A DNA stretch of 64,000 nucleotides from NCBI GenBank assembly GCA_958510825.1, contig OY294048.1, forward strand, positions 28,299,026 through 28,363,025, in the 5' to 3' direction. Every line of letters starts with the position of its first letter. The stretch's first letter is position 1. The translations under genes were made by a program, and so were the position numbers. The notes beneath the pieces were generated by a model, which searched no databases, was not told the DNA's origin, and saw only the letters and a program-made list of their open reading frames with translations. This document shows, in pieces, positions 3,942-63,627 of this stretch. The DNA comes from Brachypterus glaber. Its lineage: Eukaryota; Arthropoda; Insecta; Coleoptera; Kateretidae.

Positions 3942-4667
3942 ATCTAACAAGGATGGGGTCTTTTAAAGCGCCGGACAAAACCGCGCCTGGTTTACCGCGC
4001 CGCCCTTTACCGCGCCACCCTTTACCGCGACTGTCCTTTACCGCGCCGACCGTAACCGCGCCTAGGACATTACCGCGCCTAGGACATTTCCGCGCCTAGG
4101 ACATTTTCGCGCCTACACTAGCAACAATATTTTGTGGATTTTCAACTGTTTCAATTGCACGTTTTTTAACATTATGTTCCATCTCCTTTAAAAGCTTCCC
4201 GTTACTTGTATGAATTCTCCCCTTACAAGAGGTAACATCATATTTTACGCACTTCCAAAAATTTTTATTTTCTTTTGTTTTTTGTTTTCTGTAAATATGC
4301 TGCTTCCAAATAGCCAAATCTTTATTTCTACTGCTTTTGATAATTTCTATCGACATTGTAACTTAACTGAACCTCTACTAGGTAGGTAAATATACTAAAA
4401 CTCAATAAAAATAGCACAAAAAACACTTTTATATAAATCGAACAAAATCACAAAAAAAAACATAAAAAAATCATACAATAATAAATTAAAACTGGGCCAT
4501 GGCTCGGTAATGGACGACGCGGTAGAGGACGGCGCGGTAAAGAACGGCGCGGTAAAGGATGGCGCGGTAATGTCCTAGGCGCGGTAACTGACGGCGCGGT
4601 TTAGGACGGCGCGGTAATGGTCGGCGCGGTAAATTTGGCGCTGTAAAAGACGGCGCCCATCTAACAA
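3942..4667. mobile_element. Non-autonomous MULE (Mutator-like) element, 708 bp plus 9 bp target duplication
   Basis: The 9 bp direct repeat ATCTAACAA lies at 3942-3950 and 4659-4667 and brackets a 708 bp element. The ends are an imperfect terminal inverted repeat: GGATGGGGTCTTTTAAAGCGCC at one side against a GGGCGCCGTCTTTTACAGCGCC-like inverse at the other. Inside each end is a cluster of TTTACCGCGCC / GGCGCGGTAA motifs, about eight per side, in opposite orientation. A 9 bp duplication, subterminal repeat clusters and a FLYWCH-type remnant together fit Mutator-like elements. No transposase core is left, so this is an internally deleted copy. Confidence 0.8.
4096..4356 (-). pseudogene. FLYWCH zinc-finger remnant of a MULE protein
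   Basis: An 86-codon frame starts at an ATG at 4356 and runs into the left subterminal repeats, where it stops. Residues 17-61 look like a FLYWCH finger: W17, Y22, a W34-K-C36 pair, C44 in TSCKGR, and an E-H61-N segment. The expected final His two residues after H61 is Val, so one zinc ligand is lost. FLYWCH fingers are DNA-binding domains found on insect MULE-derived proteins, usually ahead of a MULE transposase domain. That domain is absent and the last residues are encoded by terminal repeat. It is best read as the N-terminus of a deleted transposase gene; expression as a small DNA-binding peptide is possible but unsupported. Confidence 0.6.
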
Positions 4668-13736: not shown

Positions 13737-14357
13737 TAAATTATATTCTCTCGCAAATTTTTTTATTGTCAGTAAGTGGTAGTTTTATCTCGTTGAAATC
13801 TCATACTGGTTGGATATTTTAAATTCAAGGTGTGAACAATGAAGTTTACTTGGGCCTTATTAAACTTTAAAATATTTCCACACAATACAAAACCTCGGTT
13901 GCGAAACGTTTTCCACCGAGTACAATTCGCAACGTACATATTTTATACTAATTTGGTTCGCAAAATTATTATAAACAGCAGACAATGCTTATCAAATTTA
14001 AAAATTTAAAGTTAAAGTTTTTGTCAATAATTTTATTATAACCAATAATCGCGGATTTGGTATTAATTGCATATTTAGCACTTTAACACTTTAAACAATT
14101 TTCAAATTACGCCAATTTTAAGTAAAACTAAACTTTTTGAACGTTCCCTTACAATTCCGACACGTTCGCAGCAAGTGCTGGCCGTTAAATTAACCAGTAA
14201 AAAGACGCACGGGTAAGTCGCGCTCCTCTATAAATAAAGCGATGACGCACCGGTGCGTCATGGGCGCTGAAAGTGTTAATGTTTAAAAATAATTATGTAA
14301 AATATTCTCAGTGTATTAGTATACTCTAGTATGCGTTCAATTTAATTAAATAAGTTA
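13737..14357. other. Unannotated stretch with one 18 bp palindrome
   Basis: There is no gene. TGACGCACCGGTGCGTCA at 14243-14260 is a perfect palindrome, followed by GGGCGCTGAAAGTGTTAA. The surrounding 14150-14280 is less AT-rich than its neighbourhood and may be the end of an unidentified DNA transposon. Confidence 0.45.
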
Positions 14358-14450
14358 GCTGTTTTTGCTTTTCCTTACAACGATTTTTAAACTCCATATA
14401 GAGATATATAGAAAGGATTTGATTTTCGTAGTTTTCCCTACTACATATAT

Positions 14451-14493
14451 GTGGCTCTGAAGAGTGCTAAAAAGCACGAAATCGATCAGTCAC
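14451..14493 (+). ncRNA. Minimal type I hammerhead ribozyme motif, copy 1 (intact)
   Basis: Parts in order: GUGGCU (stem I, 5' strand); CUGAAGA (core); GUGCU-AAAA-AGCAC (stem II, 5 bp with tetraloop); GAAA (core); UCGA; then U-C at the cleavage site; AGUCAC (stem I, 3' strand). GUGGCU pairs with AGUCAC over 6 bp with one G-U. Stem III would be the self-complementary AUCGAU (14481-14486), which cannot form a hairpin but can pair between two molecules. This is as in the dimeric minimal hammerheads of Penelope-like elements. Predicted cleavage is between 14487 and 14488. All invariant core positions are present. Activity is inferred. Confidence 0.75.
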
Positions 14494-14888
14494 TTCGGAG
14501 GGACGACTGCGTTAATCAAACAAAAGTCGTTTTAAGGAATAGTAAAATGTTTTATATAGATTTTTTTAAATTTGTAAATATCAAACAATTTAATTTAGTT
14601 TACTAATTCAGATACCACTGTAAAAGGTGCCCTTCTAGCGTTTAGGATTCAATTGGCGGCAATGTCCACCGTGGCATTGATTAATCTGCCCCCTATCGAC
14701 AGCGTGCAATAGGTTCTTGAAACCAATAACTGCTTCCTTTTTTCGTACTGTCGATAGGTTTATTCAGTCTCTGCTTTTAGCAGTAGATGTCGCTAGCTGT
14801 TTTTGCTTTTTCTTACAACGATTTTTAAACTCCATATAGAGATATATGGAAAGGATTTGATTTTCGTAGTTGTGTCCACTACCGATAT

Positions 14889-14931
14889 GTGGCTCTGAAG
14901 ACTGCTTAAAAGCACGAAATCGATCAGTCAC
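14889..14931 (+). ncRNA. Hammerhead motif, copy 2 (stem II closing pair lost)
   Basis: Same layout as copy 1, but stem II reads CUGCU-UAAA-AGCAC, so its first pair is C-C instead of G-C; four pairs remain. Core CUGAAGA and GAAA, stem I and the palindromic AUCGAU are unchanged. Confidence 0.65.
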
Positions 14932-15325
14932 TTCGGAGGGACGACTGCGTTAATCAAACAAAAGTAATTTTAAGGAATAGTAAAATGTTTTATATAGATT
15001 TTTTAAATTTGTAAATATCAAACAATTTAATTTAGTTTATTAATTCAGATACCACTGTAAAAGGTGCCCTCCTAGCGTTTAGGATTCAATTGGCGGCAAT
15101 GTCCACCGTGGCATTGATTAATCTGCCCCCTATCGACAGCGTGCAATAGGTTCTTGAAACCAATAACTGCTTCCTTTTTTCGTACTGTCGATAGGTTTAT
15201 TCAGTCTCTGCTTTTAGCAGTAGATGTCGCTAGCTGTTTTTGCTTTTTCTTACAACGATTTTTAAACTCCATATAGAGATATATGGAAAGGATTTGATTT
15301 TCGTAGTTGTGTCCACTACCGATAT

Positions 15326-15368
15326 GTGGCTCTGAAGACTGCTTAAAAGCACGAAATCGATCAGTCAC
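15326..15368 (+). ncRNA. Hammerhead motif, copy 3 (same stem II change as copy 2)
   Basis: Identical in the motif to copy 2, including the C-C mismatch next to the core. The two units therefore probably arose by duplication after that substitution. Confidence 0.65.
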
Positions 15369-15761
15369 TTCGGAGGGACGACTGCGTTAATCAAACAAAA
15401 GTAATTTTAAGGAATAGTAAAATGTTTTATATAGATTTTTTAAATTTGTAAATATCAAACAATTTAATTTAGTTTATTAATTCAGATACCACTGTAAAAG
15501 GTGCCCTCCTAGCGTTTAGGATTCAATTGGCGGCAATGTCCACCGTGGCATTGATTAATCTGCCCCCTATCGACAGCGTGCAATAGGTTCTTGAAACCAA
15601 TAACTGCTTCCTTTTTTGGACTGTCGATAGGTTTATCCAGTCTCTGCTTTTAGCAGTAGATGTCGCTAGCTGTTTTTGCTTTTCCTTACAACGATTTTTA
15701 AACTCCATATAGAGATATATGGAAAGGATTTGATTTTCGTAGTTGTCCCTACTACCGATAT

Positions 15762-15804
15762 GTGGCTCTGAAGAGTGCTAAAAAGCACGAAATCGATCAG
15801 TCAC
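15762..15804 (+). ncRNA. Hammerhead motif, copy 4 (intact)
   Basis: Matches copy 1 throughout, with stem II GUGCU-AAAA-AGCAC fully paired. It lies in the truncated last unit. Confidence 0.75.
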
Positions 15805-15868
15805 TTCGGAGGGACGACTGCGTTAATCAAACAAAAGTCGTTTTAAGGAATAGTAAAATGTTTTATAT

Positions 15869-16802
15869 TAATTAAATAAAATTAAAATTATATGTAGACG
15901 AATAATCTGCACCAGACATGAATACCAAATCCGCTATCACTGATTATAACAAGGAAAAATATAAAAATCAGGTAGGTAACCTTTCTAGACGGGTGGCAAA
16001 ATGAGAACGTTTAATGTTCACAAAACTCGTAAAAGTTCAATTCTATTAGCAAAATTGTTAATAAAAAATAAAAAAAATCCTTTTTTTCATTTTTCACAAA
16101 TTCGTCACTTTCCTACATATTTATTTGAATCATTTATTTTGTTTTATAGCTTTATCAGATTGTTACCGATACATATTAAGCGCAATTTGTAGGCAGAAAA
16201 AAAATTAATTACAGAAAAAATAAAACCGCGGACATGTACTGTTCTTAAAATGAATTTTAGTTTATTTCGTTTTTTTTTATAAAATTGTTTTAGCTTAATT
16301 TAAACGATAGTAAATAATAACAATCATTGCAAATAACAAGTTGTTTTACATACTCGTACATAAATACAACAATAAAGGCAAATATTTCAGCTTTAGTCGT
16401 TTTTTTTCATTTGCAACAGAGATGCCTATTTTATCTTTTGAAGATTCTTTTAACAAAATTAATCAATTTTTTACTTTCGATCTTTTTCATAATCTATTCT
16501 TTTTCCTTTGAATCGACCTTATAGAATCAAAAAATTTTCGGGTCAAAACTAAAAATTAATATTTATTTTCTGAAACCGAGCATGTTTTTTGTCCGAAGCA
16601 TATCAAACACCAATTGCACTGCTAATAGCTGAAGTCGGCAATGCTAAGCTTTGTCTACTTCTTGATTATCATTGGTTTGTTTTATACAGTTAATTTTTTA
16701 GGTTTGATTTTGAATTGATACTTAGAATCGATTCTTTTGTATAAGATCGGCATCCCTGATTTGCAAAAATTACTTGTCAATCAGAAGAAAAAACAAAAGT
16801 AC
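15869..16802. other. No recognisable feature
   Basis: AT-rich sequence. Two 63-65 codon frames near 16001 and 16327 are low-complexity and resemble nothing known to me. Confidence 0.4.
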
Positions 16803-21502: not shown

Positions 21503-22352
21503 GTACAGTAGCCGGCGTATTTCTAGTTGTAGTCCAGTCTTCAGGTCAATAAAAGAGGCTTTACCTGGAAATAATTCAGGGAGTTTTGATTTTGGGTTTA
21601 TTGGGTAGGGTTAATGGCCGCAAATAAAAAAAAAAACAATTTTGGGACGTTGAACTCGATTTGGAACTTTAATTTTTTCAATGTATTTTTCACATTAAAA
21701 CGGACTTTTAAAATATATCTTAAACGTTACACTATACGTTTTTAGATTTTTAATGTTTTTCTCGAAAAACCAAAATTGTTCTTTATTGTCGGTTTGGCAT
21801 GCCCTTGAAAACATTTTGGGTGAAAATTAAAAAAATCTATCTGGCACTTTCTTTTTAATTTACTTAAAATTACTTTTTTTTTAATAATTCACACATTTGT
21901 GCCCCATTATTTCGAGTAAACCGATTTTCGATTGAATCACCATTGTATTAATCATAAAAAAACATCCTAACCGAGTCATAAAGGAAAATATAAAACCCTA
22001 CAGTGTAACGTTTAAGGCGGTGCCGTAATTAGCTATTAGTCGTACAAAAAAATATACGACACAAAAAATGTTGGAGATTTGGTCCTCTTTTACATATCAA
22101 AAGTTTTTTGTTCTAGGATGCACCGATCTTGAGATATTTTAAAAAAAAAATTTTTGTGAAAAATAAGTTAAAATAAGAGAGTTCCAAATAGAGTTCATTG
22201 TCACAATATTATTTATTTATGGCCTTAAACCCTATCTAATAAACCAGAAATCTAAACTCACTGAATTTTTTCCAGGTAAAGCCTCTTTTATTAACTTGAA
22301 AACTGGACTATAACTAGAAATACGCTGGAACTGATTATGTATTACTGTACAT
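21503..22352. mobile_element. Foldback element, about 850 bp (family E)
   Basis: GTACAGTAGCCGGCGTATTTC, TAGTCCAGTCTTCAGGTC and AATAAAAGAGGCTTTACCTGG at the left return inverted at about 22215-22352. The arms are about 130 bp. The interior is AT-rich and has no frame. Confidence 0.75.
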
Positions 22353-37762: not shown

Positions 37763-40224
37763 ATTTTCATACAGGTAGTAGTAGTAGTAGTAAGGGTGGG
37801 GAGGCTACAAGCCAGGCAACTAGGCCATTATGGCCCTTTTTGCCAGCCCCGAGCTGTCCCAGCCACACATCTACCCTACTCCCTGCCTAAACCTGCCGGA
37901 CCTCCTTATAAAGGTCGCGATATCTGTCCAGGCAAGGGTACGCAACTCCTCTCTTCGGAGAGTTGCCACTCCGAAGATCTCCTGTCGTATTCTGCCGAAC
38001 CGATCGCATTGTCCTAGGAAATGGAAGGACGATTCTTCGTCTATCCCGCAACCCGAACAGACGGGGTCGTTACCAACCTTCATCTTGAACAGGTGCCTTC
38101 CTAGTCCACAGTGACCCGTGAGGATCCCTGTGAGTTGGCTGATCGTGGCTCGGCTTCTTCCTAGTAGCCACGCGGTTTTTGACTTGCTTGGACCGGAAAG
38201 GAAGTCCTTTGCCTGTCTGCAGTTCGTGACCGTTGACCAGCTTTCCCTTAGTTTTTCTCCAGCCCACGTGTTGAGGGCTGATGTGACTTGTTTCCTTGTA
38301 ATACCAAGCATGGGTTCGGGTCCCATGCACGGAGTTTCGGCTCCGAGCCTGGCAAGTTCGTCTGCCTTCTCGTTGCCTGGTATCCTGCTGTGTCCAGGGA
38401 CCCATACAAGGTGGACTCTTTTGTTCCTCGCTAGCTCCTCCAGGGCTTCTATGCATTCCTGCACAAGACTGGATCTTGTGCTGGGTGCACTGAGAGCCTT
38501 CAGGGCTGCTTGGCTGTCGGAGCAGATGTATACATCTGATCCGTTACTCCCTAGAACCTCTTCGCATCTTGCCGCTTCCTGTATCGCAAAGACTTCCGCT
38601 TGGAATACCGTGGGGTACCTGCCGAGCGAATAGCTCTTTTGAACCCCCGTGTCTTGTACAAAGAAGCCTGCGCCCGAGCTTTGCGTGCTTTCCATCCGGG
38701 AGCCGTCTGTATAGCACACTGTTGCGTTTTGGGCAAAATTAACTTCCTTGTTCTCCCACTCGTGTTTTGTTGGTATAGTGAGAGAGAATGCTCTGTCAAA
38801 CCTTAATCGGTCTTCCGCCTCTATCACCTTGATGCTGCTGATAGGTAACTCTACTCTGGCAACATCGGCGATTTTTGTATGTCCGTAGACTGCCCCTTCA
38901 CCCAGCCAGCATCCAACATCTCTCATTCTAAGGTAGCTAGCCATTGCCTCCCTCCTTATCCAGGACGGAAGCGTTGGCAGCCCCAGTAGAACTTCCAGTG
39001 CTGATGTGGGGGTCGTCCTGATTGCGCCGGTGATCCCGAGACACGCTAGTCTTTGGATCTTACTCAGACTCCGAGCTACTGTGGTTTTGCTGACGCTTGG
39101 CCACCATACCACCGAGCCATATTGGACTCTGGGTCTAATGACGGCGGTATAGATCCATAATAGAATCTGTGGGGTCATGCCCCAGCTTTTTCCCACTGCC
39201 CGACGCAAGTGCCAGAAGGTCGCAATCGACTTGTCAATGACTTTGTCTACATGCGCCTTCCAGTTGAGTTTACTGTCTAGGGTTACTCCCAAGTACTTGA
39301 CCTCTTGTGAGAGCACAAGCGGTTTTCCGTACATTTGGGGGGCCCTAAAGTTCTCTATCTTTCTCCTATTGGTAAAGAGGATAAGCTCAGTCTTTGTTGG
39401 GTTGACTGATAAGCCTTTTTCCTCACACCACTCTTCTATTATCCTGCAGGCTGTCTGGATTCTTTCACAGACCGTGCCCAAGAACCTTCCAGTGACTAGG
39501 ACCGTGCCATCATCTGCAAATGCTTGTGCGTATAGCCCAGCGGCCGTCAGCCTCTCTAGGAGACTGTCCATAACTAGACACCATAAGTGAGGTGAAAGAC
39601 AACTGCCCTGTGGACATCCACCCCTCACCCCGATGTCCAGACGACAGTCCCCCAGAGAGGCCATGACATTCCTTTCTACCAGCGCAGATCTTACCCAACT
39701 AACCAGCGCTGGCGGGGTGCCCCTCGCTAATAGCGCACTGCAGATGGTTGACGTTCTTGCCCTGTCGAATGCTCCCTCTACGTCAAAGAATATGGCCAAC
39801 GCCCATTCTTTGTGGTGTAACGCCTTTTCGACTCTTCGCACTATAGCGTGGAGGGCCGAGTCTGTCGACCTGCCTCGCCTATATGCGTGTTGTCCTCTAT
39901 GGAAAGGATGCCTGCTAAGCACTCCTTCCATCAGGTACCGGTCCACTATCTTTTCCAGCGTTTTCAGCAGGAAAGATGTAAGGCTTATTGGTCTGAAGGA
40001 TTTGGCGGTTGTGTAATCCTTCCTACCCGGTTTGGGGATGAAGACCACTCTCGCCCTCCTCCATTCCTTTGGAACATATCCCAGCGCCAGGCTGGCCTTA
40101 AAGATCCTCTTCACGCTGGGAAGAACGATCTCTATGCCCGCCTGGAGTAGCGCTGGGAATATGCCATCCGGTCCTGCTGCCTTGTATGGGTCAAACTCTT
40201 TCACCGCCCATTTTCATACAGGTA
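37763..40224 (-). mobile_element. Recently inserted 5'-truncated RNase H-bearing LINE with 15 bp target duplication
   Basis: ATTTTCATACAGGTA occurs at 37763-37777 and 40210-40224 and brackets 2432 bp of LINE. The 3' end on the minus strand reads GGCAAAAAGGGCC..., then CCTCCCCACCC, then TTACTACTACTACTAC. The 5' end stops inside the RT frame, the usual result of incomplete target-primed reverse transcription. The base composition is far richer in GC than the flanks. The flanks match the repeat at about 61196 and 61859 (AAATTAAACTTTTCGTACAG), which shows the empty site. Confidence 0.9.
37871..40209 (-). CDS. LINE ORF2 fragment: reverse transcriptase, RNase H and CCHC knuckle
   Basis: An intact frame of at least 777 codons, open to the truncation point upstream of the first Met at 40204. 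Residues counted from that Met are: GPDGIFP (11-17), FRPISL (70-75), FFDVEGAFD (139-147, motif A), GCPQGSCLSP (196-205, motif B) and FADD (229-232, motif C). The RNase H domain runs about 495-620 with D500 (YTDGS), E537, D563 (SDSQ) and D615 (NEKAD). A CX2CX8HX4C knuckle lies at C716, C719, H728, C733. RT, RNase H and a terminal knuckle fit the R1/LOA/I-type branch of the Jockey superfamily; the exact clade is not settled. The upstream endonuclease and ORF1 are missing, so it cannot move itself. All visible catalytic residues are present. Confidence 0.92.
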
Positions 40225-47478: not shown

Positions 47479-47902
<424 letters not shown>

Positions 47903-48034
47903 GTATCCAGAGTCTCAGCCAAAGCTGGAAATATATGACAAACTAATAACGTGATAATTTTAGTTTGAATTCAGTTGATGGAAATGAAATTCATCATAGC
48001 CCACTAATCCGATGGAATTTGATGTTCTTCCTTC

Positions 48035-48948
48035 TTATTCCAGAGATAAAAATTTTCTTATTATTCTGCATGTATCTAGAATCACAGATTTTTGAATTTG
48101 AATGTATAATCCTCTTGGTAAAGATAGGGATTCTAAATTCTTTGAAAAATTTTTCGTCACTACACCCTCTAGTGACATGACTATTGCTAAAATTTTGACA
48201 TCTTTTAAATTCCACATTCTTTTTAATTCAATTTTAAGATCTTGATATTTTTCAATTTTAGTTGTTTCAGATTTAGTTAAATTACAAGTAAGAGGTACAG
48301 CAAAATAAATTATAATTCCAGTTTTTTCTTTTTTATCGATTAGTACTATATTAGGTCTGTTGTGATTAATAGTTCTATCGGTGATTATTGGCCTATCCCA
48401 ATACAGTATCAAGTCTTGATTTTCTAAAACAGCTTCAGGAGTATATTTATAATAAGGAACTTTGATATTAATTAATTGATTTTTGTGAGCAATTGCTTGG
48501 TGAACAATTCCAGCCATTTTATTATGTCTTCCCAAATATGCGTCGTTGGCTAAATTAGGACAACTACCTGTGACATGTTCAATTGTTTCTCCAACAGAAT
48601 TACATTTGCGGCATCTATCTACTACAGGATTTCTTAGGATATGTCTATCATAATTTTTTGTTCGCATTACCTTATCTTGAACCGCTGATATGAAGCCCTC
48701 GGTTTCAGGATATAACAAACCAGTTTTTAAATAAGAAAAGGAAATTTTTTGATCGATATTTTCCTTTTTGATTTGAGATAGATATCTGCCATGCAACTCT
48801 TTATTTCCCCATTTTTCCATTCTTTCTCTTGTTGTTTCACATGTTATTAAATATTGTTGATCGGATAAATTTAAGGGAGTAGCCTTGTTATCAATACTTT
48901 TAATTTGATCTAAGATAGGACTTTCTTGATTAAAAAAATATTCTCTTA
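48035..48948 (-). pseudogene. R4/Dong-like ORF: CCHC knuckle and restriction-like endonuclease part
   Basis: It continues from SLREYFFNQESPILDQIKS after the frameshift, through the Met at 48820, to the stop at 48035. A CX2CX8HX4C knuckle (CRKCNSVGETIEHVTGSC) precedes GRHN and the endonuclease core RPNIVLIDKKEKTGIIIYFAVP-like segment. In the family this core reads RPD...ID(V/I)AVP and supplies the catalytic acids. Here Asp is replaced by Asn after RP, and by Tyr before FAVP, so DNA cleavage is probably lost. The domain would nick the target to prime reverse transcription. Confidence 0.8.
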
Positions 48949-50013
48949 AAGACCTCTACCTCCCTCTTTTCGAGATAGATAGAGACGTTCAACTGCCGAA
49001 TTTGGATGAAGAATACGAAATTTAGTAAGCATTCGCCTTGTCAATCTATCTATCTCGTCTAAATCAGTGGAACTCCATTTAATTACGCCAAAGGAATATG
49101 TAAGCGCTGGTACAGCCCATGCATTTATAGCAGAAATCAGGTTTTTCGAAGAAAGCTTTGTATTAAGTAACTTTGTAAGTCTTGTTTTATACTTTTCTGT
49201 CAATTCTTTTTTAATGTCCGTATGTCTAAATCCCAACTGTTGCTTAAAACCCAAATATTTGTAAGACTCATCCTTGGGAAGTTCTTGAATATTAAGTAAA
49301 ACCTCTTCAGTATTGAGAACTTTTCCTTTATTCACCTGGACAATTGCACACTTATCTAACCCAAACTGCATCTTTATAGTATCACTAAATACTTTAGTGG
49401 TATTTATTAGCCTAGACAACTGATCTTTGGTTTCTGCAAATAACTTGATGTCATCCATATAAAGCATGTGATTTATTTTATTAGGAACATTCATCGTTAT
49501 TTTATATCCTATATTTAAAGAATTCAATAGTGAGGATAGCGGATTAAGTGCAAGGCAGAACCATGTAGGACTATAAGAATCTCCTTGAAATATTCCTCTA
49601 TTTATATTAATTTTTTCAATAGCCCTATTATTTATTTTAAGTTCAGTTTTCCAAGTTGTCATAGAATGTGCAAGAAGTCTTTTAATAATCGGATGAATCT
49701 TATACATATCAAGAACTCTAAGCAGCCAATTATGTGGTATCGAGTCAAAAGCTTTAGAGTAGTCTATATAGCAAGTATATAAATTACGCTTTTTAGTTAT
49801 TGCGTGGTGAGCAATGACTGAGTCCATAACCAATAAATCCTTGCAACCTTTTGATCCCTTTGCACAACCTTTTTGAAATGGTGATATTATTCCATTATTT
49901 TCACAATGCATGCAAACATAGTAATTTACTAATGAAGACAATAGTTTATATATAACAGATAAGCATGTAATTGGACGATAGTTACGTGGATCAGTTATTT
50001 CTCCTTTTTTGTA

Positions 50014-50014
<1 letters not shown>
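48946..50014 (-). pseudogene. R4/Dong-like ORF: reverse transcriptase part
   Basis: Coding begins at the truncation with YKKGEITDPRNYRPITCL and passes the Met at 49941. It continues through QKGCAKGSKGCKDLL, CYIDYSKAFDSIPHNW (motif A), GIFQGDSYSPTWF (motif B, the QGDxxSP form of the R2/R4 branch) and LYMDDIKLFAET (motif C, intact YMDD). It ends in YLSRKEGGRG just before a frameshift near 48948. A deletion of a dozen or so residues probably joins it to the C-terminal part. The RT catalytic residues look intact; the frame break makes the ORF non-functional. Confidence 0.85.

Positions 50015-50077
<63 letters not shown>
50015..50077. repeat. (ATT)21 microsatellite
   Basis: Twenty-one perfect ATT units at the 5' side of the Dong-like element, followed by a T-run. 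Confidence 0.97.
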
Positions 50078-50555
50078 TTTTTTTTTTTTAATGGGTTTTA
50101 TTTTTTTTCTCAACATAGTTTTTTCGAGATTGATTTTTGTTTTTTATTTCATTAATTTTGTAATAACCATGCTTAGGTAAAATTATTGTTTTGCTGCCAG
50201 TCGCTTTTTTTAATTGCAATAACTATAAAACTGCATTAAAAAAATAAAGATCTTATTTTGTTCTTGCTTTTAAAAAAGCCGAAAAGTCATTGTATCAACA
50301 AGAACATCTCTAGACGAACATAAAAAATAAATTAATTAAAAGGTCTTTTACTTCTCTTATGGCACATTAAGTTCGTAGGAAAGTTTAAGAAATGTCGTTT
50401 AAAATAATTAATTTTTATGTTTTTGGGAAGACTCTTGTAGCTTTTTATTTTATTGCTGCCTTTATACGTAATTTCCGGGTGGATAGTTTAATATAACATA
50501 ATATTTATTTACAGTACTATAAATAGTATTCTTGTGACTTACGAGTCGTGTTAAG
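50078..50555. other. No recognisable feature
   Basis: T-rich start, otherwise AT-rich spacer. Confidence 0.4.
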
Positions 50556-55915: not shown

Positions 55916-56222
55916 ATACTAGAAGGTAAGTTTTCCTGTCCCATTTATTAATGACGTACACGCTCTACTTCTCTATGCTCGCCCTTCAAACCAGTTTATT
56001 CGACTATCCTAGTGTAGTACTTTTTTTCAAATTTTTAGGAGAAATTCCTATAAATAAGTTTTAAGGGTTTTTTTCATTTATTTTTTTCTTTAAAACTCAT
56101 TGTTTTTTTAGGAGAAAGTCCTCTCCCTCATCATAAACAGATATTTTAATTTGTAATAATATAATATTTTACTATTCCTTGCAACTACTTTTGTTTTGAT
56201 TAACACAGTCGTCCAAACCGAA

Positions 56223-56265
56223 GTGACTGATCGATTTCGTGCTTGTTAGCACTCTTCAGAGCCAC
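56223..56265 (-). ncRNA. Minimal hammerhead motif, left arm (intact layout)
   Basis: Minus strand: GUGGCU, CUGAAGA, GUGCU-AACA-AGCAC, GAAA, UCGA, U-C, AGUCAC. All core bases, both stem I strands and the palindromic AUCGAU are as in the 14451 copy. Only the loop of stem II differs. Confidence 0.7.
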
Positions 56266-56496
56266 ATATCAGTATAAGGACAACTGTGAAAATCAAATCT
56301 TTTTCATATGCTATATGGAGGAGAAAAATAATTGTAAGGAACAGCAATAACAGTTAGCGACATCTGCTGCCAAAAGAAGTCTCTGCTTTTGGCAGCAGAT
56401 GTCGCTAACTCTTATTGCTGTTCCTTACAATTATTTTTCTACTCCATATAGCATATGAAAAAGATTTGATTTACACAGTTGTCCTTATACTGATAT

Positions 56497-56539
56497 GTGG
56501 CTCTGAAGAGTACTAACAAGCACGAAACCGATCAGTCAC
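56497..56539 (+). ncRNA. Minimal hammerhead motif, right arm (two changes)
   Basis: GUGGCU, CUGAAGA, GUACU-AACA-AGCAC (one A-C mismatch in stem II), GAAA, CCGA, U-C, AGUCAC. The stem III palindrome becomes ACCGAU and no longer self-pairs. It is probably weaker or inactive compared with the left arm. Confidence 0.55.
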
Positions 56540-56600
56540 TTCGGTTTGGACGACTGTGTTAATCAAAAAAAAGTAGTTGCAAGTAAAATAGTATATTATT

Positions 56601-57159
56601 ACAAATATATTTTTCTACATTTTAAAAATGTTCCAAGTTTTTCAATTAATTAGATATTTTAATACTTTTTATTTTATTTTGCATACCTTATGAGGCCTCA
56701 ATGCAAATAATTGCAATTCTCCATTACTACTTCATTGTGATAAGACCGCTGGAAACCTTTATGTTTATGTACAAAGGGCACCTTATCGAGTAAAATTATT
56801 GGTGAATATTTTGCTACTGTGTGTGTGTGTATGTATTTTTCAGTCACGTAGGTTGTACATTCTTAATTAAATTTATCTTTTATGTATATGTCACCCCAGT
56901 CAGACAATTTTATCTCTTTTTTGTAATGACAATTGAGGGGGTTGGAAGTAAAGGGGTATAATTGCGTTTTTGTTCAAAAATAAGATTATTGCATATTTTA
57001 ATGCTTAATCAATTGCCTAATAAACCCGTAAAATAAATAACTTAAATACATACATTACAGAAGTGAAAACAACTTAAAAATCTTAACCTCTAAAAGAGTA
57101 AAGGATTTTTTGGTAGTAAAAGTGTTAATAATCAATGATATAACATAAACTGTTAACTG
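56601..57159. other. No recognisable feature
   Basis: AT-rich spacer with a short (GT)n run near 56818-56830. Confidence 0.4.
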
Positions 57160-61195: not shown

Positions 61196-62770
61196 AATTA
61201 AACTTTTCGTACAGTTTTTTATACTAAAAGTCACCATTTTAGATAAATCGAATAAAAAGTTTTTTTCATTATAAGCATACCAAAATAAGGCTAAAAATAA
61301 TAAAAGTAAATGGTTTTATGTTAAAATTTATTGTTGAAAACAAGAAAGTATTGGTGACGTATTTTTATGCAATAAAATTTTGAGACCTTTAAGCTAAGAG
61401 CATAAAATACTTTAAAAAGTTAAAAAAATGACAAAATTATTCTTCGTTCTATACCTAAATCATTAAAATAAAATAGTTTAGTTAATGTTTATATCTAAAT
61501 TTATCGTATTTATTAAAAAAAGTAAAATATTTACATTATTATCTTGCCTCCAAGCAAAATTAAAGAAAAATTTGGCAGTAAAAGGGTATAAATGCACTAA
61601 AATATTTCAGAAGTAATTTAGGTGTGTAGATGCACATACATAGCAAAATAAGGCTAAAAATAATAAATGTGAATGTTTTTTATCAGAAAGTTATTATTAT
61701 AAACAAAAAACTATCGGTGTCGTATTTTTATAGTTTAAAATTTTAAGACAAATTTACCGTTTACCGAGAGAATAAAATACTTTAAAAACTTAAAAAATAG
61801 CACAATATTCTTGGGTCGATATCTAAATTCTTATAAAAAATAGGTTTGTTAATGTTCATAAAATTAAACTTTTCGTACAGGTTTATTATACTAAAAGTCG
61901 CGATTTTAGATAAATCGGATAAAAAGTTTTTTTCATTGTAAGCGTACCAAAATAAGGCTAAAAATAATAAAAGTAAATTTTTTTATGTTAAAATTTATTG
62001 TTGAAAACAAGAAAGTATTGGTGAAGTATTTTTAAGGAATAAAATTTTGAGAGCGTTTACCCTTTAAGCTAAGAGCATAAAACACTTTAAAAAGTTAAAA
62101 AAATAACAAAATTATTCTTCGCTCTATACCTAAATTATTAAAATAAAATAGTTTTGTTTATGCTTATATCTAAATTTATCGTATTTATTAAAAAAAGTAA
62201 AATATTTATTTATTTATTATTATCCTGCCTCCAAGCTAAGTTGAAGAAAAATTTGGCAGTAAAAGGGTATAAATGCGCCAAAATTTGTTAGTCGCATTTT
62301 AGGTGTATGCATGGAATATATACAAAACAGGGCTAAAACTAACAAAAGGAAATATTTTTTATTAGAAATTTCTTGTTGAAAACAATTGGACTTTTGAAAT
62401 TTCTTGTTGAAGACTATTGGAGTCGTATTTTTATAGAACAAAATTTTGAGACAAGCTTGCGCTTTAAGCTGAGAGCATAAAATACTTTAAAACGTTAAAA
62501 AGTTCAAAATTATTCTTCGATCCGTACCTAAATTATTATAATAAAATGGTGTTGTTAATGTTTATATCTAAATTTATCGTACTTATTAAAGAAAGTTAAG
62601 TATTTACATTACTATCCTGCCTCCAAGCAAAGAAACCATTGGCAGTAAAAGGGTATAAATGCACGAAATTTCTTTAGCCGCATTTTAGGTGTAGGCTAGA
62701 AGTTCATACCAAAATAACCCTAAAATGATAAAAGTCAATCTTTTTTATTAGAAATTGACTGTTCCTATCG
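61196..62770 (-). repeat. Array of the same 345 bp units, inverted, with a 665 bp higher-order repeat
   Basis: The unit now reads on the minus strand: AATAAGGCTAAAAATAATAA, TTTGGCAGTAAAAGGGTATA, GCCTCCAAGC and TAAAATATTTAC recur near 61290, 61545, 61640, 62220 and 62620. The segment from AAAATTAAACTTTTCGTACAG at 61194 repeats from 61859 (665 bp later). The whole 58690-62770 block is therefore a large imperfect inverted array with its switch point near 61200. Confidence 0.7.
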
Positions 62771-63116: not shown

Positions 63117-63627
63117 TTTAACTTAGGAAATAAACTTTTCCGTCTAAGGAAATATTTTCATTTGATTTTAACGACAGATAGATAACTTTCTAATATATAC
63201 ATTTTCGGCTATTAACCTACAAACGTGCAGCGTATATATATATTTTTATATATAGACTGTCAATTCTTAACTTATTTAACTTTGCTTAACCGGCTAAAGG
63301 TTTATAGAATGGTTTAGGTCCTTGGCGTTTTTAATGCACGTTACTGTACATCCTAAATTGTGGCGATTTGCCTTTTGGGAACAAGTGAACATATAACAGT
63401 GACCACCATACTTTTATATCTATCTAACGGTTTATTTAAATATTAACAACATACAGGATACACAGTGCTGATGATTCCCAAAAAGGATGAAATGGTACTA
63501 TTCACTGTTTCCTGTTCATTTGATTTTAACGACAGATAGATAACTTTCTAAAATATTTTCCGACAAATACTAGTATATAGTATACGTGTATTAAGTAAAA
63601 AATATTTCATTAGACGGAAAAGTTTAT
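63117..63627. mobile_element. Inverted-repeat element, about 510 bp, with internal direct repeats
   Basis: AACTTTTCCGTCTAAGGAAAT near 63133 is mirrored by ATTTCATTAGACGGAAAAGTT near 63605. TCATTTGATTTTAACGACAG then ATAGATAACTTTCTA occurs at 63158 and again at 63514 in the same orientation. Confidence 0.6.

Follow-up and report, generated by a model that had tools for sequence, protein, structure and literature searches.

A probable non-coding hammerhead retrozyme family of the beetle Brachypterus glaber, with head-to-head arms and paired fixed ends that hint at Penelope-type machinery

A tandem repeat whose units each carry a hammerhead ribozyme raises the question of whether the array is a mobile element and, if so, which machinery inserts it. 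The array considered here (array A) lies in 64,000 nucleotides of Brachypterus glaber DNA (assembly GCA_958510825.1, contig OY294048.1, positions 28,299,026 to 28,363,025 of the forward strand; referred to here as the window). An earlier note on this DNA had claimed tandem hammerhead units of 437 bp at 14358..15868, which was borne out by TRF (14356-15868, period 437, 3.5 copies, 97% matches), by the presence of four motifs and by a geometric descriptor. The series GTGGCT-CTGAAGA-hairpin-GAAA-TCGA-TC-AGTCAC was identified in all four units, starting from 14451, 14889, 15326 and 15762, and the predicted cuts, each after a C, are spaced by 438, 437 and 436 nt. Both ends of the array are adjoined by an identical 12-bp sequence; a match of at least 12 bp was obtained by chance in 8 of 20000 random site pairs at the same spacing (1514). 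The features of array A are as follows.

14342..14353, unstranded: left target-site duplication of array A, TTAATTAAATAA, a 12-bp exact match adjoining both array ends
14354..15867, plus strand: array A, a one-armed retrozyme insertion of 3.46 units, with its 5' end at about unit position 1 and its 3' end at about 202
14451..14493, plus strand: hammerhead of unit 1 (core and inner stems), predicted cut after 14487, outer stem I short of three pairs
14889..14931, plus strand: hammerhead of unit 2, cut predicted after 14925, C.C at the stem II base
15326..15368, plus strand: hammerhead of unit 3, cut predicted after 15362, C.C at the stem II base
15762..15804, plus strand: hammerhead of unit 4, cut predicted after 15798, intact, its extended fold the lowest in energy of six copies
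15727..15851, plus strand: extended ribozyme domain of unit 4, with an outer stem I of 19 pairs, 4 pairs, a UAU/U internal loop and 6 pairs
15868..15879, unstranded: right target-site duplication of array A, TTAATTAAATAA

The type I hammerhead descriptor was run on both strands of the 64 kb, with 40 dinucleotide shuffles as a control. Six matches were obtained (the four of array A, one at 56259 on the minus strand and one at 63468), compared with a mean of 0.05 and a maximum of one in the shuffles. Eight additional hammerhead matches in the window, found with a loose regular expression, were dropped, as none matched the descriptor and six had no nearby direct repeat; a weak match at 21810-21887 (69-74%) was rejected for want of a descriptor match. 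The exact ribozyme pattern was found neither in viral nor in genome contigs of collections that comprise viruses and prokaryotes, and unit A had no match in a phage collection, results that carry little weight for an animal element.

The array A ribozyme was shown to consist of an inner stem I (GUGGCU/AGUCAC), the core CUGAAGA plus GAAA, a stem II of five pairs, and a helix III reduced to a single A-U pair capped by the palindrome UCGA. Beyond a 3-by-1 internal loop (UAU/U), outer stem I follows with CCGA/UCGG, CGUAGUUGUCCCU/AGGGACGACUGCG and UUUGAUU/AAUCAAA, a total of 23 pairs, of which unit 1 is short of three and units 2 and 3 are short of one. The description of each hammerhead as complete and minimal was accordingly upheld in part: all four motifs are present and helix III is short, but units 2 and 3 carry a C.C mismatch in stem II, units 1 to 3 have lost outer stem I pairs, and stem I runs on past the internal loop by up to 23 pairs, unlike in the minimal Penelope hammerhead as described in PMC7761336. 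A minimal Penelope hammerhead is one that lacks helix III or loop-loop contacts, and this form seems doubtful here: helix III is minimal, and stem I is extended with an internal loop. The helix III resembles that described for the axolotl retrozyme Amex1, with one pair and a palindromic tetraloop (PMC7229834).

The covariance-model check suggested by the earlier note gave no match at gathering score in an Rfam search of the window, and Hammerhead_HH9 matched units 4 and 1 (28.4 and 25.3 bits) and units 2 and 3 (16.2 bits) below its gathering score of 52. In the aligned ribozymes, 95.3% of stem cells pair, compared with at most 48.5% in a slid control, and one stem pair is changed on both sides, from G-C to A-U; none of the pair measures stands clear of column shuffles, as 61 to 500 of 500 shuffles reach them. 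In ViennaRNA, the active fold was less favoured than one in which UGA of the core pairs with UCG; the energies of the cis and dimer forms leave the mode of action undecided. If the ribozyme acts as a dimer, units 1 and 4 could supply the cores that cut the sites of units 2 and 3. The predicted release of 437-nt monomers is a fair expectation for the family as a whole, in which 119 of 144 hammerhead copies (the four of array A included) are identical, and less so for array A, in which two inner cores are damaged. Two of the 144 copies carry a G-to-A change in the core.

The coding content of array A is limited to an 84-aa antisense frame without a Pfam match, and no reverse transcriptase or GIY-YIG endonuclease frame lies within the array. 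The GC fraction of its units is 0.36-0.37, and three monomers, when folded as circles, were 64-67% paired, with z values of -4.8 and -6.5 for the two of them that were tested. Tandem hammerhead satellites with units of a few hundred bp, to which array A is likened by description only, include newt satellite 2 and cave cricket pDo500. Array A also resembles metazoan non-LTR retrozymes as described in PMC7229834, which share a type I hammerhead, tandem units of 150-450 bp, a GC content below 50%, a highly paired monomer and, where duplications occur, target duplications of more than 4 bp (12, 12 and 10 bp at the three loci of the window). Plant LTR retrozymes (PMC4918200) are likewise small non-coding elements with hammerheads, and the circular RNA known from them would be expected here; those of plants have a type III hammerhead, a 4-bp duplication, and LTRs with PBS and PPT, compared with a type I hammerhead and a 12-bp duplication in array A.

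Two other loci in the window carry hammerheads, and their features are as follows.

56139..56150, unstranded: left target-site duplication of locus B, AGATATTTTAAT
56151..56373, minus strand: left arm of locus B, inverted, with its 3' end outward, the short end
56223..56265, minus strand: hammerhead of the locus B left arm, intact, descriptor match
56374..56651, plus strand: right arm of locus B, with an extra tail, homologous to unit A through about position 248
56497..56539, plus strand: hammerhead in the right arm of locus B, short of one stem II pair, no descriptor match
56652..56663, unstranded: right target-site duplication of locus B, 12 bp
63150..63159, unstranded: left target-site duplication of locus C, AAATATTTTC, 10 bp
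63160..63550, plus strand: locus C, a second retrozyme-like family, 1.1 copies of a 358-bp unit, with direct repeats at 63157-63198 and 63515-63556
63462..63508, plus strand: locus C hammerhead, type I, with a predicted cut after 63502, Hammerhead_HH9 30.8 bits (gathering score 52), descriptor match
63551..63560, unstranded: right target-site duplication of locus C

Locus B (56151-56651) is composed of head-to-head partial units that are 79-84% like unit A, and forms a near-palindrome, about 460 bp long, in which each strand has a hammerhead; the right arm is about 40 nt longer on its 3' side. A 12-bp chance match at its spacing (501) was seen in 1 of 20000 random site pairs. The unit of locus C has no sequence likeness to unit A, and when folded as a circle it shows no unusual stability (z -1.9); its hammerhead shows U.U at the stem II base and a UAC/U internal loop in stem I, and a 10-bp chance match at spacing 391 was obtained in 22 of 20000 random site pairs. 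Locus C is flanked by 29-bp inverted repeats (63130-63158 and 63599-63627), and its insertion site may therefore have been a small transposon with inverted repeats. Near it, at 62026-62756, lie two copies of a 386-bp tandem, 80% alike, which was rejected as a hammerhead repeat because it has no CTGANGA core.

Elsewhere in the window, reverse transcriptase frames (48035-50097, minus strand) are present within 47479-50097, between long TTA and TAT runs; the arrangement resembles an R2/R4-type (Dong-like) element in a TAA repeat. A frame of 780 aa for RT plus RNase H at 37871-40213 occupies a stretch of 52% GC in a region near 30% GC, and its listed relatives reach 63% identity, with 69% of the query covered (P0007). 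Among the 120 best relatives listed for a reverse transcriptase of the window, the few with an organism name include a seed beetle, a psyllid and metagenome bins that are labelled Gammaproteobacteria. At 3991-4656, short tandem arrays on ACCGCGCC and on its complement are separated by about 390 bp, and the interval contains a fragment of a FLYWCH zinc finger (4099-4362, minus strand).

Unit A was searched in the 648-Mb assembly (842 contigs), which gave at least 182 matches, and 40 of 1118 candidates were scored. Thirty-nine loci were taken from the best matches listed to the full unit; genome copy counts are lower bounds, and array lengths are biased upward because the loci were chosen as best full-unit matches. 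Loci L001-L008 were not counted, since they duplicate places already represented by L009-L047 or by the window. Array A was kept in the 40-locus counts and left out of the duplication controls and two-arm end counts, and locus B was left out of the genome-wide arm, end, variant and hammerhead counts. The unit represents a young genome-wide family, the 77 aligned full units showing a median of 4 differences over 437 columns between loci, with many identical. Array A is a one-armed and more diverged copy of this family, with more differences from the majority sequence in its units than in those of other loci. The proposal that it is a retrozyme-like mobile array was therefore sustained by its tandem units, its 12-bp duplication, the lack of a notable coding frame, the strongly folded monomer and the young genome-wide family.

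An alternative is a plain satellite DNA, spread by unequal crossing over and carrying its hammerhead incidentally. In array A the units follow the pattern [a p][b p][b q][a], which is compatible with a single unequal exchange located between columns 278 and 388 of the alignment (0-based), and the array may later have grown by one unit in this manner. As an account of the family, the satellite explanation is scarcely credible: the loci are dispersed, with duplications and fixed ends, and between families A and B the hammerhead keeps 42 of 43 positions, compared with 149 of 188 elsewhere (Fisher p 0.003; one sequence pair).

Thirty of the 39 loci were two-armed, and every one of these was head-to-head. 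Ten of 40 loci, array A among them, were one-armed in the present mapping, which takes only the largest cluster per locus with gaps under 60 bp; L012 was scored as one-armed because its inverted part sits 200 bp off. Duplications of at least 11 bp (11-16 bp) were found for 21 of 39 same-locus boundary pairs, compared with 4 of 1482 cross-locus pairs. The 21 duplicated loci include two one-armed loci (L029 and L046), and the mapped ends of the other 18 showed no duplication of this length. In all 19 two-armed loci with such a duplication, by which the exact ends were set, one 3' end was located at 196-207 and the other at 242-247 (medians 201 and 244), although half of the loci would be expected to be mixed by chance if the arms chose their end sites independently. 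This rule of one short and one tailed end was also observed in 27 of 30 loci (exceptions L010, L015 and L021) when wider windows were applied (195-230 and 238-258) and no duplication was required. Relative to the ribozyme cut, predicted after the C at unit position 132, the 3' ends of the family lie 69 and 112 nt downstream, that of array A 69 nt, those of locus B 78 and 118 nt, and that of locus C 48 nt.

The 5' ends of the two arms were not within 10 nt of each other in any of the 30 two-armed loci (median separation 120 nt), indicating that the arms are separate cDNAs. This bears on the view that palindromes arise by self-priming, in which a cDNA folds back and copies itself, as has been proposed for rotifer Penelope elements (PMC3846280). 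Self-priming would yield the head-to-head geometry and may apply to locus B, the arms of which start within about 10 nt of each other and show a 93% mirror match. For the family, with separated 5' ends, arms of different lengths and two 3' ends about 43 nt apart, it is a very improbable cause. At the junctions between arms, an overlap of at least two bases was seen in 19 of 30 loci, compared with 18% expected, a count that alignment extension may inflate. The longest arms measure 2626 nt, equal to six turns of the unit, in this sample of upward-biased locus choice.

The same ends are informative with regard to an ordinary LINE as the mover of the retrozyme, acting through one-strand target-primed reverse transcription with twin priming to give the inverted parts. 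An insertion made by LINE twin priming has a single 3' end and is inverted internally, whereas all 19 two-armed loci with a duplication have two 3' ends, both facing outward and each at a fixed place. Furthermore, the unit reaches to within a few nt of the duplication, so that no room is left there for a poly-A tail. A LINE origin therefore seems quite unlikely, even though RVT_1 was identified by Pfam in four of nine window frames, LINE-like by eye, and Nematostella retrozymes with 15-bp duplications have been likened to LINEs (PMC4918200).

Another possibility is that the arrays are solo pseudo-LTR arrays of an autonomous Penelope element and not an independent retrozyme, an explanation whose enzyme overlaps with that of the reading preferred here. 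Unit positions of about 411-437 plus 1-202, which are common to unit A and locus B, behave like a 229-bp pLTR with an optional tail. Against this stand a 208-bp body between those parts, without a recognised frame in the 77 aligned full units, and a stem I of the retrozyme kind. In addition, the first frame through the ribozyme ends at once (ATG TGG CTC TGA), unlike in the Anolis element. We consider the pseudo-LTR explanation unlikely.

The two arms of a locus share a common source. The diagnostic position 40 is T in 24 loci and C in 16 (array A included), and in the 21 loci in which both arms cover it no base difference was observed between the arms, with a deletion in one segment of L042. 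Similarly, a T at position 23 that is private to L020 was present in five of five segments, in both arms. Variants found in only part of the units (L014 at position 274, and also L016, L019, L027, L040 and L043) are not predicted by a single clean circle without later change or a mixed template. Differences between units within a locus averaged 3.13, compared with 4.30 for shuffled labels (lowest of 500 shuffles 2.8), a within-locus similarity only modestly above that of shuffled labels, which speaks weakly for a single source.

The flanks and 5' ends were also inspected. GTT, read outward from either side, occurs just outside the duplication in 14 of 40 flanks, compared with a background of 1.9%; it is present on one side of locus B (AAAC before the duplication) and absent from the flanks of locus C and array A. 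Unit positions below 15 account for eight of 69 5' ends, and the 5' end of array A also lies there, near position 1. At unit positions 330-359, at the 5' arm of a CCTATCGACAG/CTGTCGATAGG hairpin, 16 of the 69 mapped 5' ends were located, and this is a possible stalling or joining site. Two one-armed copies (L032:970 and L034:987) begin at unit positions 136 and 137, just past the cut, as a cut linear RNA template would give; these being the only starts near the cut, the use of 5' ends as marks of ribozyme-cut RNA was dropped.

Comparable insertions are described for Penelope-like elements. In Adineta vaga, Penelope copies are reported with head-to-head inverted pLTRs, a 31-bp tail on one of them and duplications of 8-10 bp in named cases, one insertion having no duplication (PMC3846280). 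With the Penelope protein of Anolis, both strands of the target are cut and extended, and copying begins at two internal sites that are adjacent in the RNA and separated by the stretch that forms the tail; in the assay described, no difference in start site was seen between the strands, insertion did not require the ribozyme, and a linear RNA was used (PMC11167929). This strand result fits either strand using either site, and neither shows nor excludes pairing of the sites within one event. Copying there starts at 111-118 of the frame, with the hammerhead cut at 26, i.e. 85-92 nt past the cut (PMC11167929). As described in these sources, Penelope-like elements thus resemble the present family in having head-to-head inverted copies flanked by a duplication, an optional tail on one arm (31 bp and 30-40 bp there, about 43 nt here), AT-rich targets, starts tens of nt past the hammerhead cut, and partial tandems. 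They differ in that the present unit lacks a reverse transcriptase or endonuclease and in the length of the duplications, which are about 12 bp rather than 8-10 bp.

The link to Penelope drawn in the earlier note is supported as regards insertion machinery (head-to-head arms, a fixed short end and a tail of about 43 nt). It is not supported as regards sequence descent, as the scan against Pfam of 19 of the 59 frames in the window brought no recognisable Penelope gene to light. Penelope elements were named as a strong candidate for moving retrozymes in PMC7229834, from the main text of which the words 'inverted', 'head-to-head' and 'orientation' are absent, indicating that such arrays are not described there. 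According to a 2020 review, animal retrozymes carry no conserved motif pointing to an autonomous mover (PMC7761336).

Taken together, the best reading, to which we assign a probability of about 0.78, is that of a non-autonomous, non-coding metazoan non-LTR retrozyme whose circular RNA would be reverse-transcribed from both target strands by Penelope-type machinery. By analogy with published retrozymes, tandem transcripts would cut themselves at each hammerhead into monomers of about 435-437 nt, which a host ligase would close into circles. A Penelope-type reverse transcriptase/endonuclease would then cut an AT-rich target with a 12-nt stagger; machinery of this type is suggested because the one-sided tail, the inverted arms and the AT-rich targets are published marks of Penelope-like elements. 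Both target 3' ends would prime cDNA synthesis on the circle, one from about position 201 (69 nt past the cut) and the other from about 244 (112 nt past it), and each cDNA would run a variable distance, of up to six turns. Joining of the two cDNA ends at scattered points, often over a few matching bases, would result in back-to-back arrays with one short and one tailed end.

A more specific version is bilateral target-primed rolling-circle reverse transcription by a Penelope-type dimer, in which two reverse transcriptases act per insertion, one per cut strand, starting 43 nt apart on the same circular RNA. We regard this version as tentative, at somewhat short of even odds. If true, it would reveal which class of enzyme is responsible for the spread of animal retrozymes, and the asymmetric Penelope tail would represent the interval that separates two start sites which are paired and each serve once in an event.

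For the biology of the family, the anatomy of the insertions offers a clue to the mover: their fixed ends come in pairs, the arms are inverted, the duplications measure about 12 bp, and both sides show a target preference. This pattern provides evidence, though indirect, for a mover of Penelope type. Within the array A family, it also tells against the idea that head-to-head copies generally arise by self-priming, and other genomes with retrozymes offer a means of checking the short-and-tailed end rule. Since the family is young, with dozens of near-identical copies among those fetched, its source RNA, circles and enzyme may be findable in living animals.
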